DNA of 64,000 nucleotides from contig NZ_CP061714.1 in the NCBI RefSeq assembly GCF_014764385.1, forward strand, positions 992,001 through 1,056,000, written 5' to 3'. A model generated the notes under the pieces. The model was not told where the DNA came from and did no database searches. It saw nothing but the letters and a program-made list of their open reading frames with translations. Position numbers and translations under genes: made by a program. Below, piece by piece: positions 9,308 through 15,583 of the stretch. Source of the stretch: Luteimonas sp. MC1825. GTDB lineage: Bacteria; Pseudomonadota; Gammaproteobacteria; Xanthomonadales; Xanthomonadaceae. Numbering within the stretch: the stretch's first letter is position 1; each line of letters begins with the position of its first letter.

Positions 9308-9766
9308 ATGGACAAGATGCTTCGCTCCCTGCCGCTTGCGCTCGCGCTGCTCGCACTGGCCCCCTCGGCGGCCGCGCAGGACGCCGCCGCCGGCTGCCTG
9401 CCGCGCGTGGTCGACGGCTGGCTGCGGCCGCCACCGGTGCCGATGCCGATGCTGGCCGGCTTCGCGCGCATCGTGAATCCCTGTGCGACCGCGGTGCAGG
9501 TCGTTGCGGCCTCGGGCGCCGGATTCGGCCGTGTCGAGATCCACGAGACCACGCTGGCCGACGGCGTGAGCCGCATGCGCGCGGTGCCGTCGCTTGCGAT
9601 CGCCGCGGGTGGCGAGGCCGTGCTGGAGCCCGGGGGCCTGCACCTCATGCTGATGCGTCCGGTCGCCACCCCGGCTGCCGGCCAACGCGCGGTGCTGCGG
9701 TTCGTGCTCGCCGACGGCCGCACCATCGAGGGCGCATTCGAGGTGAGGTCTCCCCGCGCACGCTGA
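9308..9766 (+). CDS. Periplasmic copper chaperone, PCu(A)C family
   Basis: 152 residues with a signal peptide (MDKMLRSLPLALALLALAPS). The copper motif H-x10-M-x21-H-x-M is exact: H79, M90, H112 and M114. Proteins of this kind carry Cu(I) in the periplasm, often to the CuA site of cytochrome oxidase. Start chosen at the ATG giving the signal peptide; 40 bases separate it from the divergent isomerase gene. Nothing in the neighbourhood is a cytochrome oxidase gene. Confidence 0.88.
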   Translation: MDKMLRSLPLALALLALAPSAAAQDAAAGCLPRVVDGWLRPPPVPMPMLAGFARIVNPCATAVQVVAASGAGFGRVEIHETTLADGVSRMRAVPSLAIAAGGEAVLEPGGLHLMLMRPVATPAAGQRAVLRFVLADGRTIEGAFEVRSPRAR

Positions 9767-10133: not shown

Positions 10134-11060
10134 ATGCGCATCCGTAAGAGCATGATGGCCGTGGCGGTGTTGTTGGGTATCGGCATGACGGCGCCGGGTT
10201 GGGCCCAGGACCAGACCGAAACCGGCCGCGGCGACAACAACGCGACGAACGAAGAAGACAACAGCAGCGGTGACAACCGCGACCACGCCGATGCCGCATT
10301 GGGCCTTGGCATGTCGAATGCCTCGGCAGCCAACGCCAGCACCGCGACCACCGAGGTCAACAGTTCGTTCAACAGCAACCGCGCGATCGCCAAGACCTAC
10401 CTCGAAGGCACGGTGACCGGCAACCTCATCTTCGGCATCGGCAACAGTGCCAGCAACAGCGGCGACGCCAGTGGCGCGCGCGGCGGCGATGGCGGCGAAG
10501 GACGCGGCGGGCGCGGCAGCGGCGGCGACGGTGACGGCGGCAACGGCGGCGACAGCGGTGACGGGTATGCCCTCAGCGGACGCGACGGCGATTCCGGCGC
10601 CATCGGCATGAACGGTGCGGGCAGCGATGCGGACTCGGATTCCACGGCCGATTCGCGCGCGCGCGCGCGTGAGCGCGGCGCGGGTGATGCGAGTTCCGAC
10701 TCGTCCGCCACGTCCGACAGCAGCGCGACCGCGGATGCGACCGCCACCGGCGGCGCGACCACGGCCAGCAACGACGGCAGCAGTGGCAACGCGAGCACCA
10801 CGTCCGGCACTGGCGGCAACGGCGGGTCCGGCACCGGCGGCGCGGGCAATGGCGGTGACGGCACCGGCGGCAGCGGCGGCGACGGCGGCAGTGGCGGCAG
10901 TGCCTGGGCCGACGCGGGCTCGTTCGACATGTCCAACTCGATGGATGGCACGGCCAATGCCGCTGCGGGGCTGATGGTGATGGCGCAGAACAGCGGCGCC
11001 TCCTCGTTGATCCAGCAGGGCGTGACGGTGCAGGCCAACCTCAGCGTGGGCGGTCCGTGA
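10134..11060 (+). CDS. Secreted low-complexity Gly/Asp/Ser/Asn-rich protein, likely amyloid-type subunit
   Basis: 308 residues; AAGGAG lies 6 bases before the start. After a signal peptide (to about WAQ, residue 24) come an acidic Asn/Asp stretch, a segment STATTEVNSSFNSNRAIAKT and EGTVTGN (about 69-97), two glycine-rich blocks (about 115-165 and 225-256) separated by an Asp/Ser-rich acidic block, and a C-terminal motif at 275-303: NAAAGLMVMAQNSG then LIQQGVTVQANL. That motif recurs in the next gene. The composition and the downstream export genes suggest a subunit of a Fap-like functional amyloid, but it is not clearly related to Pseudomonas FapC by eye and lacks its CxxC. Subunit role is inference. 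Confidence 0.6.
   Translation: MRIRKSMMAVAVLLGIGMTAPGWAQDQTETGRGDNNATNEEDNSSGDNRDHADAALGLGMSNASAANASTATTEVNSSFNSNRAIAKTYLEGTVTGNLIFGIGNSASNSGDASGARGGDGGEGRGGRGSGGDGDGGNGGDSGDGYALSGRDGDSGAIGMNGAGSDADSDSTADSRARARERGAGDASSDSSATSDSSATADATATGGATTASNDGSSGNASTTSGTGGNGGSGTGGAGNGGDGTGGSGGDGGSGGSAWADAGSFDMSNSMDGTANAAAGLMVMAQNSGASSLIQQGVTVQANLSVGGP
10478..10905 (+). repeat. GGC-rich degenerate tandem repeats inside the subunit gene
   Basis: Two clusters, about 10478-10560 and 10805-10905, are built from imperfect 6-9 base units such as GGCGGCGAC, GGCGGCAAC and GGCACC, encoding Gly-Gly-Asp/Asn/Ser/Thr. Such units can change copy number by slippage and would alter subunit length without a frameshift. Confidence 0.6.
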
Positions 11061-11134
11061 CCTGAGCGTCTGACCGGATGTGTGCGCCGCGGCATGTCCG
11101 CGGCGCACCCGCGCTGCGCCCAGGAGCAACCGCC

Positions 11135-11479
11135 ATGCCTGCTATCGCGATCTTGATCATGGCCGGCGCCGTTGCGCTGGCGTCACCGGCGCCGGATACG
11201 GCTGCCGTGGCCGGCCTCGGGCCGGTTGTCAGTGGGGACGCGCTGCAGATGCAATCGGGCAACGTCGGCCTGGATCCGGGCATCCTGGTCGAAGTCGACA
11301 ACGCCGGCACCGTGACCGGCAACGTCGCACACGACAACGTGACCGGCCAGAACGTGGTCGGTGGCGGCGCGTTCGGCAATGCCGCGGGCATCAGCACCGT
11401 GATCCAGAACAGCGGCAACAACGTGCTCATCCAGAACGGCACCGCGGTGAACGTGCAGTTCGGCGGACCGGCCCCGTGA
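11135..11479 (+). CDS. Small secreted protein sharing the amyloid-subunit C-terminal motif
   Basis: 114 residues from MPAIAILIMAGAVALASP, with CAGGAG 8-13 bases upstream and a short signal peptide. Residues 56-62 (NAGTVTG) echo the EGTVTGN of the preceding protein, and residues 82-109 (NAAGISTVIQNSG then LIQNGTAVNVQF) repeat its C-terminal motif almost position by position. It has no Cys in the mature part. By position and size it could be a nucleator or minor fibre component (FapB-like role), which is inference. Its stop overlaps the GTG of the protease gene. Confidence 0.65.
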   Translation: MPAIAILIMAGAVALASPAPDTAAVAGLGPVVSGDALQMQSGNVGLDPGILVEVDNAGTVTGNVAHDNVTGQNVVGGGAFGNAAGISTVIQNSGNNVLIQNGTAVNVQFGGPAP

Positions 11480-12183
11480 CGCCGCGCCTGGCCGCGCCGT
11501 GCCTCGTGCTGGCCGTCGCCGGCCTGCTGCAGGCGGCCGCACCGTGCGGCGCCAGCGGTTCACCTGCCGAGATCCGCGTACCCAACGGCGGCAGTTACGC
11601 AATTCGCGTCACCAGCCTCAAGGAGGCGCGCTACCGCACCACCATCCGCCAGCAATACGACTTCAGCTGCGGCTCCGCGGCGGTGGCCACGCTGCTCACC
11701 TACCAGTACGGCCAGCCGGTTGGCGAGGCCGACGTGTTCAAGGCGATGTACGCGCGCGGCGACCAGGCGCGCATCCGTCGCGAGGGTTTTTCACTGCTGG
11801 ACATGCGCGAGTACCTGCAGGCGCGCGGCTACGAGGCGGACGGCTTCGAACTGCCGCTCGACAAGCTGCTGGAAGAGGGCCTGCCGGCGATCATCCTGAT
11901 CAACGACCGCGGCTACCGCCACTTCGTGGTGGTCAAGGGCATGCGCGACGGGCGCGTGCTGCTCGGCGACCCGGCGCGTGGCACGCGGTTGCTCAAGCGT
12001 GGCGACCTCGAGCGGCTGTGGGACAACCGGGTGTTGTTCGTCGTGCACAACCGCCGCGAGCTCGCGGCATTCAACGCTTCACGCGACTGGCGCGCCGCGC
12101 CATTGGCGCCCATCGCCCTGGCCGTGCAGCGGCAGGGACTTCAGGACGTGGTGCTGAGCCGCCGCGGACCGGGGGATATCTGA
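11476..12183 (+). CDS. fapD: Exported C39-family cysteine protease, FapD-like
   Basis: 235 residues from a GTG overlapping the preceding stop (GTGA). A signal peptide precedes the C39 papain-like domain: catalytic C65 in RQQYDFSCGSAAVATLLTYQ, H149 in DRGYRHFVVVKG and D165 in LLGDPARG. Free-standing periplasmic C39 proteases of this shape are found in Fap operons, where FapD is needed for export of the amyloid subunits; C39 domains otherwise cut leader peptides in ABC exporters, which is excluded here by the absence of an ABC transporter. It sits between subunit-like genes and the outer-membrane channel, as in fap clusters. Confidence 0.75.
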   Translation: MTPRLAAPCLVLAVAGLLQAAAPCGASGSPAEIRVPNGGSYAIRVTSLKEARYRTTIRQQYDFSCGSAAVATLLTYQYGQPVGEADVFKAMYARGDQARIRREGFSLLDMREYLQARGYEADGFELPLDKLLEEGLPAIILINDRGYRHFVVVKGMRDGRVLLGDPARGTRLLKRGDLERLWDNRVLFVVHNRRELAAFNASRDWRAAPLAPIALAVQRQGLQDVVLSRRGPGDI

Positions 12184-12185
12184 CC

Positions 12186-12701
12186 ATGAAGACGTTCTCG
12201 ACGAAACGCTGGATGTGGCATCTGCTGGTCACCGGGCTGCTTGCGGCCGGGGCGGTCGGCTGGTCGGCGCCCGCGGCATCGGCCGATGGCCTGCCGGCGG
12301 GCTGGACGCCGGTTGATGCGGACCGCCTGGCCACCCTGCGCGGAGGCTACGTGCTGCCGGGCGGGATGCTGGTGTCCTTCGGGTTCGAGCGCCAGGCGTG
12401 GGTCAACGGCGAGCTGGTGTCGTCGCTGCGCATCGAGGTCCCGGACGTGGCCAACATCACCGCGGCGCAGACGGATGAACTCGCGCGGCTGCGCGATACC
12501 CAGCTGGTGCAGGTGGGCGCGGGCAACGTGTTCGAGCCCGGCGTCGGCGCGGGGCTCGTGCTGCAGAACACGCTGGACGGCGCCGACATCCGCGTCATGA
12601 CCACGATCGAGGCGGGCACGACCGCGCTGGGAATGTTGCAGGCGGCCAATTTCGCCGACGCCATGGGCATGGCCGGCATCGGCGCCATCGGTACACCGTG
12701 A
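12186..12701 (+). CDS. Secreted accessory protein of the amyloid-like locus (FapE-like position)
   Basis: 171 residues, starting 2 bases after the protease stop. It has a signal peptide with a basic start (MKTFSTKRWMWHLLVTGLLA). The mature part contains DADRLATLRGGYVLPGGMLV, SFGFERQAWVNGELVSSLRI, a helix ITAAQTDELARLRDTQLV and GLVLQNTLDGADIRVMTTIE. The last weakly resembles the QNSG...LIQ motif of the two subunit-like proteins. The order subunits, protease, this gene, channel corresponds to fapE in Pseudomonas. Function unknown; a minor component or export factor is inferred from position. Confidence 0.6.
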   Translation: MKTFSTKRWMWHLLVTGLLAAGAVGWSAPAASADGLPAGWTPVDADRLATLRGGYVLPGGMLVSFGFERQAWVNGELVSSLRIEVPDVANITAAQTDELARLRDTQLVQVGAGNVFEPGVGAGLVLQNTLDGADIRVMTTIEAGTTALGMLQAANFADAMGMAGIGAIGTP

Positions 12702-12721
12702 GCCAACGGGGAGCGCAAGGC

Positions 12722-14089
12722 ATGGAGATGCGGATCGGGAGCGGGGCGCTGCCGCGCCGCCGCGGTGTTGTCCTGAGTTGGGCGATTTCACTGGCGCTGG
12801 TGCCGGTGCTGTCCGCGCGCGCAGGCGAGCCACTGCCTGTTGGCCAGGACGATGCCCGGCTGTCGGCACTCGAAGCGCGCGTCGAGGCCCAGGCGCGCGA
12901 AATCGAGGCCTTGCGCACGCAGGTGATGCACCAGCAGGCGGCCTGGGACGCGGCGACATCGGGCGTGGATGCGCTGGCCCTGGATGACTTCCGTGCCCGC
13001 GGCCCGGCCGGCCAGGCGGCGCCGGCGGGTGCGGCCGGGGACGCGATGGCAGCGCGCGGCGACGCACCGGGCGACACGCGCGTGGGCCAGGCGCCGGAAA
13101 CCTACGACCGGCCCCCCGAGGTGGCGCAGATCTTCGACCAGCCCGGCGTGCTGACGCCGAAGGGCAAGCTGATCCTCGAGCCCTCGCTGCAGACCGGCTA
13201 TTACGCCAACGACCGCGTGGCGTTGATCGGGTACACGATCATCCCGGCGATCCTCATCGGCCTGATCGACGTGCGCCAGGTGAAGACCACCAGCGTGACC
13301 GCCACCCTCGGTGCGCGCTACGGCCTGGGCAAGCGCTTCGAGGTGGAAGCGCGGGTGCCGTATGTCTACATCAAGGGCGACACCGTCAGCCGCGAGATCT
13401 TCACCGGCACCGCGCAGGACAGCGTGTTCACCTCCGACGGCCGCGGCGTGGGCGACATCGAGCTGAGCGCGCGCTACCAGCTGGCCAACCGCGGCCCCGA
13501 GCACCCGTACTACGTGCTGTGGCTGCGCTACAAGACGCGCACCGGCAAGGACCTGTTCGACGTGGTCACCGACTGCGTGACGCGCTGCGTGTCCAACGCC
13601 ACCGGCACCGGCCTGCCGCTGGAACTGCCGACCGGCAGCGGTTTCGCCGCCGTGCAGCCCGGCGTGACCTGGGTGTTCGCCTCCGACCCGGTGGTGTTCT
13701 TCGGCAGCCTGAGCTACCTGCACAACTTCGCGCGCGACGACCTCTCGCGGACCGTGCTGAGTGGCGCGCCGGAGGGATTCCCGCAGACCACCACGGAGTT
13801 CATCGGCGAGATCGATCCCGGCGACGTCCTCGGCTTCAACATCGGCATGGGCCTGGCGCTCAACGAGAAGGCCGCGATCAGCATCGGCTACGACCACAAC
13901 ATCATCGGCCGCGCGCGCCAGAACGGCAGCGACATGCCGGGCTCGGTGCGCATCGTGCTGGGCACGTTGCTGCTCGGCGCGACCTACCGCCTCAATGACC
14001 GCACCAGCCTGAACTTCGCGCTGGGCGCCGGCCTCACCCGTGATACGCCCGACCTGTCGCTCGTGGTGCGCGTACCCGTCGCGTTCTAG
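12722..14089 (+). CDS. fapF: Outer-membrane beta-barrel secretion channel, FapF-like
   Basis: 455 residues from ATG 12722; GTG 12698, which overlaps the previous stop, is an alternative. A signal peptide with basic PRRRG start is followed by a coiled coil at about 43-75 (DARLSALEARVEAQAREIEA), a Gly/Ala/Pro linker to about 125, the conserved PPEVAQIFDQPGVLTPKGKL and then a barrel built of alternating strands up to the terminal Phe (VVRVPVAF), the usual outer-membrane signature. FapF has this same build: N-terminal helical/coiled region that gates a beta-barrel pore exporting unfolded subunits. A metabolite-type outer-membrane transporter is the alternative, less likely given the neighbours. 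Confidence 0.72.
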   Translation: MEMRIGSGALPRRRGVVLSWAISLALVPVLSARAGEPLPVGQDDARLSALEARVEAQAREIEALRTQVMHQQAAWDAATSGVDALALDDFRARGPAGQAAPAGAAGDAMAARGDAPGDTRVGQAPETYDRPPEVAQIFDQPGVLTPKGKLILEPSLQTGYYANDRVALIGYTIIPAILIGLIDVRQVKTTSVTATLGARYGLGKRFEVEARVPYVYIKGDTVSREIFTGTAQDSVFTSDGRGVGDIELSARYQLANRGPEHPYYVLWLRYKTRTGKDLFDVVTDCVTRCVSNATGTGLPLELPTGSGFAAVQPGVTWVFASDPVVFFGSLSYLHNFARDDLSRTVLSGAPEGFPQTTTEFIGEIDPGDVLGFNIGMGLALNEKAAISIGYDHNIIGRARQNGSDMPGSVRIVLGTLLLGATYRLNDRTSLNFALGAGLTRDTPDLSLVVRVPVAF

Positions 14090-14194
14090 GCCCGTGACGT
14101 TTCCCCGGCCATGTCCGGTCGCGCGCGGGGCGTGCGTTGACTGCTGTGGACCGGAACGAGGCGTGACCCGGGGGGGCGGGAACGGAGCGACTGC

Positions 14195-15583
14195 ATGCCG
14201 AAAAGCGCGGAGGTGCGCGAGATTCTCCATTGGGTGGTCGCAGGGCGCGATGGCGACCATGCCTTCCCGGCGGGCGTGGTGGAGCGGGGATGGCAACCGC
14301 GACTGGTGACCGAGGCCGACCAGGTGCTCGGACTCCTGGCCGGCGCGAGCCCGCGCTGCCAGGTCGGGCTGATCGACCTGCGCGACTGCGACCGCCTCGG
14401 CGAGCGCGGGTTCGGCCACATCCTGCCGGCGCTTGCCTGCGGCGGGGTGGGCTGGGTGGCGGGGATCTCCTCGGGCCAGCTACGCATGGATCGCATCCGG
14501 CGGCTGGTGCTCGACCACTGCCACGACTACGTGGTACTGCCCTGCCACGACGACCTGCTGGCCATGGTGCTTGGCCATGCCTATGGCATGGCGGGGCTGG
14601 GCGACTGCGGCGGGGTCGGCCAGCCGGTGGCACCGCGCCCGGAAGGCATGATCGGCGACAGCCCGGCGATGCAGGCGCTGTACCGGCGCCTGCAGCGTGC
14701 GGCGATGACCGACGCGCCGGTGTTCATCAGCGGCGAGACCGGTACCGGCAAGGAACTGGCCGCCTCGGCCATCCATCGCCATTCATCGCGCCACGCCGGC
14801 CCGCTGGTCGTCATCAACTGCGGAGCGATTCCAGAGAGCCTGGTGCAGTCGGAGCTGTTCGGCTTCGAGCGCGGCGCGTTCACCGGTGCCAACCAGCGCA
14901 AGCTGGGACGCATCGAGCTCGCCCATGGCGGCACGCTGTTCCTGGACGAGATCGGCGACCTGCCATTGGAGTCCCAGGCGTCGCTGCTGCGTTTCCTCGA
15001 GCAGGGCACGCTGCAGCGCCTCGGGGGCCACGACGACATCCCCACCGATGCGCGGATCATCTGCGCGACACACGTCGACCTGGTAGCGGCGGTCGCCGCC
15101 GGGCGCTTCCGCGAGGACCTCTACCACCGCCTGCGCGTGATCGAGCTGGACATGCCGCCACTGCGTGAACGCGGCGCCGACATCGCGCTGCTCGCCGGCT
15201 GGGCGCTGGTGCGCCACGGCCGCGAAGGCGGCGGCCGCACCCGCGGTTTCAGCCGCGATGCACTGCGCGCGCTGCACGACCATGCCTGGCCGGGCAACGT
15301 GCGCGAACTCGTCAACCGCGTGCGCCAGGCCGTGGTGATGGCCGAGGGTCCCAGGATCAGCGCCCGCGACCTGCGCCTGGACAGCAGGGCATACGAACCG
15401 ACGACCCTGTCGGAGGCGCGCTCGGAGGGCGAGCGCATGGCGATCGAGCGCGCGCTGTTGCGCAATGGCCACCACCTGCAGGCCGCGGCGCGCGACTTGG
15501 CGATTTCCCGGGTCACGCTGTATCGGCTGATGATCCGCCATGGCCTGCGCGGCAGCAGGCTCGACGCCGCCGGAACCGGCTGA
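14195..15583 (+). CDS. Sigma-54-dependent transcriptional activator (VpsR-like)
   Basis: 462 residues. Residues 1-145 form a receiver-like domain without a clear phospho-Asp pocket (LIDLRDCDRLGERGFGHIL), recalling VpsR-type regulators that respond to c-di-GMP. The AAA+ domain follows at about 150-390: Walker A GETGTGKE, the sigma-54 contact loop FERGAFTGAN, Walker B TLFLDEIGDLP and arginine-finger segment FREDLYHRLRV. A Fis-type helix-turn-helix ends the protein (LQAAARDLAISRVTLYRLM). GAFTGA is intact, so contact with sigma-54 is expected. Position after the channel gene and the promoter at 10045 suggest it switches on this operon. Confidence 0.85.
   Translation: MPKSAEVREILHWVVAGRDGDHAFPAGVVERGWQPRLVTEADQVLGLLAGASPRCQVGLIDLRDCDRLGERGFGHILPALACGGVGWVAGISSGQLRMDRIRRLVLDHCHDYVVLPCHDDLLAMVLGHAYGMAGLGDCGGVGQPVAPRPEGMIGDSPAMQALYRRLQRAAMTDAPVFISGETGTGKELAASAIHRHSSRHAGPLVVINCGAIPESLVQSELFGFERGAFTGANQRKLGRIELAHGGTLFLDEIGDLPLESQASLLRFLEQGTLQRLGGHDDIPTDARIICATHVDLVAAVAAGRFREDLYHRLRVIELDMPPLRERGADIALLAGWALVRHGREGGGRTRGFSRDALRALHDHAWPGNVRELVNRVRQAVVMAEGPRISARDLRLDSRAYEPTTLSEARSEGERMAIERALLRNGHHLQAAARDLAISRVTLYRLMIRHGLRGSRLDAAGTG

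Follow-up and report, generated by a model that had tools for sequence, protein, structure and literature searches.

The canonical Fap system (fapABCDEF) combines repeat-bearing subunits (FapB and FapC), a C39 protease (FapD), FapE and an outer-membrane channel ending in Phe (FapF), encoded in the order subunits, protease, FapE, channel; FapA is dispensable in published Fap systems. The Fil system of Acinetobacter (FilB and FilC in NCBIfam, which calls it a 'putative pilus system') also joins a C39 protease and a FapF-like channel to exported proteins. C39 peptidases are likewise found in double-glycine export, for example of bacteriocins, microcins and the cyanobacterial EbfG with PteB, where the peptidase reads a leader at a defined residue spacing (hydrophobic at -12, L at -7, hydrophobic at -4, then GG). 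Curli (CsgA/CsgG), in which Gln/Asn-rich repeats are exported through an outer-membrane pore, served as a further working idea. The cluster described here belongs to Luteimonas sp. MC1825 and lies in a stretch of 64,000 nucleotides (the window; contig NZ_CP061714.1, positions 992,001 to 1,056,000, forward strand). Between 10134 and 15583, six consecutive genes on the same strand encode, as an initial annotation had described, a pair of secreted proteins (P1 and P2), a C39 protease, a third secreted protein (E), a channel (F) and a sigma-54 activator (Table 1). According to its sequences, this cluster is not canonical Fap but a sister lineage of it, which probably works in a Fap-like way.

The protease is matched by Pfam Peptidase_C39 (PF03412, E 3.7e-20) and reaches 130 bits with the NCBIfam profile FapD (E 6.5e-38, equivalog cut-off 330) against 121 bits with FilB (E 5e-35), a small margin in favour of FapD. 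The proposed catalytic residues C65, H149 and D165 proved invariant in 18 aligned C39 proteins, as is Q59. The channel, which does end in Phe, is more clearly placed, with 145 bits to NCBIfam FapF (E 2e-42, equivalog cut-off 700) and only 41 bits to FilC (E 1e-10, cut-off 630). Searched against the PDB, a channel profile built from 20 sequences matched the FapF entries 5o67, 5o65 and 5o68 at E 6e-33 to 3e-31 over about 326 positions, and these were the only solved chains below E 0.03. The initial annotation had named a better match to a non-Fap family as what would overturn its Fap-type assignment of channel and protease; none was found among the families compared. In the genome, a single contig of 2.9 Mb, the only Pfam C39 match and the only FapF-like channel match are those of the locus. 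The close named relatives of the channel are from Luteimonas. In public records, channel relatives are often labelled acetate kinase, or else SlyX family protein or autotransporter; the first of these labels looks like a misannotation.

The description as a divergent Fap-type system thus holds for the best matches to FapF and FapD and for the subunits, but both profile matches lie far under the NCBI equivalog cut-offs and the channel forms a clade of its own. In a tree of 67 channels, the 34 rows of the divergent type stand on one side of a branch with a support of 100/99, found in 100% of 200 bootstrap trees, while the 23 repeat-bearing rows stand elsewhere, together with 10 rows of other kinds; there are several long branches among these others. 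Rows were labelled through profile matches to the P1 or P2 module (see below), the label of L131 being weak, and no row is known as Pseudomonas. Channel F does not fall inside the FapF clade of repeat-bearing loci in this tree. In the same way, the FapB/C repeat profile matched none of the 78 complete loci from named genomes (see below), and NCBIfam FapC, which matches 5/5 relatives selected for having canonical fap, found nothing in the genome. Since the repeat test and the clade test both fail, the cluster is not to be filed as canonical Fap. As in the initial annotation, no FapA gene was found: none stands in its place, where a PCu(A)C copper chaperone gene is found upstream instead, and NCBIfam FapA has no match in the genome, a weak negative as this profile finds only 1/5 of the same canonical relatives.

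The two channel types have distinct distributions. A channel match was found in 76 of 198 Lysobacteraceae genomes: 41 carry the divergent type (>400 bits, 57-70% identity in relatives) and 35 carry only a type of about 30% identity. This latter corresponds to canonical fap, with repeat-bearing FapB/C beside C39, FapE and FapF, in 14 of the 15 loci fetched (L037-L051, the exception being L050). Both types occur together in 14 of the 41 genomes with the divergent one, and in the 8 of these 14 inspected among the fetched loci the second channel is that of canonical fap. Among 32 related loci (L052-L083), C39, E and F are present in all, and the five genes P1-P2-C39-E-F were called in 27 (P1 is missing in 3 and P2 in 2). 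This recurrence of the full gene set indicates that the layout is not due to chance. A scan of named genomes, limited to the best 80 of 452 stretches encoding channel relatives and overlapping in species with the 32 loci, found the P1 module, P2, C39, E and F in 78 loci, the other 2 being cut by contig ends. The five genes have the same order on one strand in 66 of the 78 complete loci. In 12 loci from Burkholderia, Paraburkholderia and Ralstonia records (L195, L205, L209, L211, L213, L215, L217, L219, L220, L222, L223, L232), the channel gene and P1-P2-C39-E are on opposite strands.

The genera concerned are Luteimonas (where P2 was found in 12 of 52 genomes), Lysobacter, Pseudoxanthomonas, Rhodanobacter, Dyella, Luteibacter, Frateuria, Fulvimonas, Paraburkholderia, Burkholderia, Ralstonia, Cupriavidus, Pandoraea and Janthinobacterium. 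The suggestion of a Lysobacteraceae version needs qualifying, as the divergent cluster extends to Rhodanobacteraceae, Burkholderiaceae and Oxalobacteraceae. Neighbouring fapD and fapF genes were noted in five more phyla in a 2018 review (PMC6173800), and no earlier description of the divergent type was found in the open-licence literature.

The subunits differ from FapB and FapC. P1 and P2 are free of cysteine, in agreement with the reported lack of CxxC. They had both been called low-complexity proteins, which fits P1 (24% Gly, 15% Ser, 15% Ala, 10% Asp and 8% Asn in its mature part) but hardly P2. Neither has a Pfam match at E 1 or any NCBIfam match beyond one under threshold, and a further NCBIfam scan of P1 gave nothing relevant. 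The view that they have no obvious FapC repeats is correct for the canonical repeat, but each protein ends in a divergent, repeat-like module rich in Gln and Asn, with the consensus AAGIMV.AQNSG..SLIQQGVTVQANL in P1 and GAF.NA.GI.TVIQNSG.NVLIQN..VNVQF in P2. The two modules match each other (hhalign probability 91, E 1.3e-6; six controls at or below 0.9). Four copies are found in secreted proteins of about 300 aa encoded near C39 and P2 genes in the distant relatives L140 (258-1163 and 3721-4644) and L146 (1593-2504). A lineage with one (or four) such modules contrasts with the three repeats of Fap subunits.

This module and the FapB/C repeat are probable remote homologues. A profile of a broader module collection (158 pattern-selected modules, one removed because of a gap) aligns colinearly with the repeat, columns 2-27 to columns 2-27, with probability 29 and E 6e-4, a score that beats 100 of 100 column shuffles (best shuffle 0.0019). 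With NCBIfam FapB, one four-copy subunit gives 1.5e-4 and two others 0.023 and 0.081, and 4 of 25 P2 orthologues give weak matches (best E 3.7e-4), although six P2 rescanned singly gave none. A match of the P2 profile to the FapB/C repeat (probability 25) was not relied on, as a shuffled P1 control reached 23. Published surveys that were filtered on the FapB/C repeat report exactly three repeats in about 94% of FapC and FapB (PMC12392863, PMC12822426); with such a filter, the divergent lineage would probably not show in them.

The E and P2 proteins carry, after a Sec-type signal and ahead of the mature part, a leader of the double-glycine type. C39 peptidases are reported to cut after GG or GA (PMC9746304, PMC4997328). 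L48, R52, G53 and G54 are invariant in 25 E proteins, and RGG, in the forms L..[LMYQ]RGG[DEATQ] or L..[MLIQ]RGG[FYM], is found in 33/33 E (window included) and in the 30/30 P2 called in L052-L083. In the complete named-genome loci, the best-scoring leader site ends in GG in 78/78 E and 78/78 P2. A weight matrix made from E finds sites above the 99th percentile of shuffles in 30/31 P2, 0/30 P1, 1/33 C39 and 5/33 F; conversely, a P2 matrix finds them in 32/33 E, the one miss being a wrongly called short start, and in 4/33 F. The E protein of the window has the hydrophobic residue at -12, L at -7, hydrophobic residue at -4 and GG at -2/-1, whereas its P2 departs from this pattern by GN. This change is shared with one close relative (G532), so that a sequencing slip is unlikely; RGG is kept in 10 of 12 Luteimonas P2. 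The AlphaFold2 (AF2) model of E places a short helix at 45-51, just before GG, with modest confidence (about 66). All this suggests that both leaders are C39 processing sites. The likeness to double-glycine export, which in Synechococcus serves biofilm formation (PMC4997328), goes with clear differences: the Luteimonas peptidase is free and has no ABC exporter, a Sec-type signal precedes the leader, and a beta-barrel presumably provides the exit.

Related motifs occur in other proteins. In the channel linker, which is otherwise variable, R91 and G94 are invariant in 20 F, and L...R[AG].G, a pattern picked after viewing the alignment, is present within residues 51-140 of 30/33 F against 1% of shuffled linkers. 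As the linker keeps an R..G motif, it may hold a weaker C39 site or a docking site. Canonical FapE has L...RG[KR], with R and G invariant in 11 diverse sequences. A search for Pseudomonas FapE through one FapE relative yielded 11 proteins, none of them named Pseudomonas. FapE, and possibly the FapF linker, have been reported to be processed (PMC5557850), and the leader motif agrees with this and would give it a concrete sequence. A stretch like LSD.DYA.M.SG, resembling a C39 leader, is seen in 6 of 9 FapA of canonical loci (L037, L042-L045, L047), FapA being recognised by pattern. Besides, loci with a Fil-like or unplaced FapF relative and C39 (L127-L130, L138, L148, L149, L151) encode several exported neighbours in which the signal is closely followed by a leader-like stretch, for example LSDNQLDQMTAG in L138 and MNEAQMDKITAG in L148; matrix scores are low there. 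No match to the E or P2 profiles was found in the Fil-like loci L127-L130. Curli families were not named in the general Pfam and NCBIfam scans, in which no dedicated curli test was included.

The third secreted protein, which the initial annotation had left unnamed, is probably the counterpart of FapE. Its NCBIfam FapE match is weak (E 0.003, residues 43-75) and is found in 1 of 25 family members; profile comparison with canonical FapE gives an hhalign probability of 87 and E 3.9e-6, for a pair without control. Its AF2 model (pLDDT 76) has no PDB match at E <= 0.001, and a Pfam scan of 25 E gave matches at chance level only.

The expression signals are also partly shared with Fap. A GG-N10-GC site (score >= 8) lies at -75 to -95, a distance range fixed after a first look at the data, in 20 of 25 P1 upstreams; the corresponding numbers are 8 of 226 for upstreams of other genes and 122 of 5000 for mononucleotide shuffles. 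The genome encodes RpoN. A similar site lies 45-50 nt ahead of FapA in 6 of 15 canonical-type loci; in the remaining ones, the distance was measured from another gene or no site was found. RpoN is a reported activator of fap in P. fluorescens (PMC8202526). The gap between P1 and P2 is structured in 23 of 26 loci (z < -2 with mononucleotide shuffles, the comparison being with shuffles only), and six such gaps retested with dinucleotide shuffles give z -2.4 to -5.0. The fapC-fapD gap is structured as well (z < -2 in 12 of 15 canonical-type loci). That P1 is the abundant, major subunit is suggested by the conserved sigma-54 promoter together with the hairpin that follows P1, as one also follows fapC, the presumed major subunit. 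The loci devoid of the sigma-54 site (L053, L056, L057, L059, L078) share another block, around GTGAC..GCGTC and then CCCCTGGGC, which is perhaps a different promoter. The activator encoded at the end of the cluster is matched by PF00158 (E 2.5e-67) and PF20161 (E 3.4e-12). It was rejected as a fixed part of the system, since only the five loci of the same genus have it next to the cluster. In the canonical-type loci L037-L051, a sigma-54 activator is likewise encoded within the stretch analysed, in many cases on the other strand.

From the gene set, the homologies and the conservation of motif, promoter and hairpin, we infer a sister Fap lineage in which a novel fibre subunit is exported and the C39 protease processes P2 and E, a reading that we consider reasonably likely. 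Sigma-54 RNA polymerase, which in this locus is probably driven by the VpsR-type activator next to the cluster, would transcribe P1-P2-C39-E-F, and the hairpin after P1 would favour the P1 message and make P1 the major product. P1, P2, E, the protease and the channel would cross the inner membrane by the Sec route. In the periplasm, the C39 protease would read the leader (hydrophobic -12, L -7, M/L/I -4, R -3, GG) on E and P2 and remove it, and it may bind or cut the related motif of the F linker. The FapF-like channel would then export P1 and P2 in unfolded form; their Gln/Asn-rich modules at the C-terminus would assemble, P2 probably acting as nucleator and E as anchor. The product would be an amyloid-like fibre on the surface, a long part of which would be hydrophilic and rich in Gly, Asp and Ser.

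Several observations weigh against this reading, which is built on sequences and models only. No structure is predicted for P1 (AF2, pLDDT 39). The similarity between module and FapB/C repeat is weak in absolute terms, P1 modules alone do not match the repeat, and for single P1 or P2 sequences the best score, that of P2 with 9.4 bits, is not significant (best shuffle 8.8). The likeness of E to FapE spans only 32 aa, around the leader motif, and on canonical FapE the matrices find sites in only 6/14 (E matrix) and 1/14 (P2 matrix). The P2 of the window itself has SGN in place of GG at its leader end. In Pseudomonas FapE, no peptides were reported within about the first 70 residues (PMC5557850), a gap that reaches somewhat further in than the leader motif predicts. 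The sigma-54 site is absent upstream of P1 in 5 of 25 loci, and the activator adjoins the cluster in L052 and L072-L075 and in 0 of 27 others.

The cluster could be a canonical Fap that has merely diverged, with P2 as FapB, P1 as FapC and nothing mechanistically new. The identical D-E-F core and order, the weak FapB matches and the remote likeness of the module to the FapB/C repeat are all compatible with this, as is the reported frequent absence of fapA from canonical fap (PMC3792158). This is rather improbable given the fully supported separate channel clade, the two channels found in 14 of 41 genomes and the absence of the canonical repeat from all 78 loci with a silent FapC profile, while about 94% of published FapC/FapB are reported to have exactly three repeats (PMC12392863). 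Furthermore, P2 carries a leader with a true GG in the divergent lineage, whereas the matrices find sites in 1/33 (E matrix, without GG) and 0/33 (P2 matrix) canonical FapB/C.

The nature of the product and the role of the leader can also be read otherwise. A flexible glycine-rich surface adhesin or matrix protein, as may hold for the related Fil systems, would fit a P1 made mostly of Gly, Ser, Ala and Asp with no predicted structure and a single module, and a protease scoring nearly as high on FilB as on FapD. The Q/N-rich module that P1 and P2 have in common, present four times in some relatives, the FapE counterpart and a channel far closer to FapF than to FilC make such a non-amyloid product unlikely. 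As for the leader, it could be a docking site rather than a cut site, C39 acting as a chaperone that passes substrates to the channel, as C39-like domains do in certain type I secretion systems. The GN of the window P2, the G-K or G-R of canonical FapE where a C39 enzyme expects GG or GA, and a channel linker retaining R..G but not GG would be explained in this way. We give little credit to docking alone, given the invariant catalytic triad and the report that FapC is no longer secreted in Pseudomonas when FapD carries the C38A mutation (PMC5557850).

A broader and more tentative proposal is that free periplasmic FapD-class C39 proteases serve a general two-step export, in which passage by Sec is followed by the reading of a GG leader that licenses passage through a FapF-class channel. 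Substrates could then include P2, FapE, FapA, the FapF linker and Sec proteins beside Fil-like channels, and repeat-based screens could have missed a fibre lineage.

The features of the window are collected in Table 1. The intergenic gaps from P1 to the activator are 74, -4, 2, 20 and 105 nt. For P2, a start at 11078 is possible, while that at 11135 has AGGAG 8 nt upstream; F could also start at 12698. With the start at 11135, the P2 signal peptide of the Luteimonas group (11135-11190 in the window) has no Lys or Arg ahead of its hydrophobic core. The PCu(A)C copper chaperone gene (9308-9766) just upstream of the cluster is kept in 4 of 5 same-genus loci (L052, L072-L074).

Table 1. Genes and sequence elements of the Fap-like cluster, with positions in the window.
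Feature	Position	Strand	Description	Evidence
Putative sigma-54 (-24/-12) promoter TTGGCATCGATCCTGCAA	10044..10061	+	GG-N10-GC; GG 88 nt before P1 start	
P1	10134..11060	+	Secreted Gly/Ser/Asp/Asn-rich protein, 308 aa; candidate major fibre subunit	
Q/N module at P1 C-terminus AAGLMVMAQNSGASSLIQQGVTVQANL	10962..11042	+		Many invariant columns in 20 P1
Stem-loop between P1 and P2	11082..11108	+	11-bp stem	z -2.7 in the window, dinucleotide shuffles
P2	11135..11479	+	Small secreted protein with leader, 114 aa; candidate minor subunit or nucleator	
Degenerate double-glycine leader of P2 VSGDALQMQSGN	11228..11263	+	GG replaced by GN	
Q/N module of P2 AFGNAAGISTVIQNSGNNVLIQNGTAVNVQF	11369..11461	+		Matches the P1 module
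C39	11476..12183	+	FapD-like C39 cysteine protease, presumably periplasmic	Pfam, NCBIfam, triad
E	12186..12701	+	FapE-like secreted protein	
Double-glycine leader of E VDADRLATLRGG	12312..12347	+	Predicted C39 cut after 12347	
F	12722..14089	+	FapF-like outer-membrane channel: predicted coiled coil, linker, beta-barrel, C-terminal Phe	
Leader-like motif LDDFRARG in F linker	12980..13003	+		R91, G94 conserved
Sigma-54 activator, VpsR-domain	14195..15583	+	Candidate regulator	

The substrate of FapD was called unclear in publications of 2017-2018 (PMC5557850, PMC6173800), and in 2025 the protease was still only 'thought to' process FapE and FapF (PMC12822426). Two exported proteins with apparent cutting sites for the protease of their own operon suggest an answer to what a FapD-like protease cuts, and their C39-type leaders make the question directly testable by mass spectrometry. 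The divergent lineage occurs in a wide range of environmental genera, among them Luteimonas, Lysobacter, Pseudoxanthomonas, Rhodanobacter and Cupriavidus, and departs from the three repeats per subunit that have been reported as a nearly universal rule. Should its subunits form fibres, a single kind of export machine would serve two natural amyloid designs.

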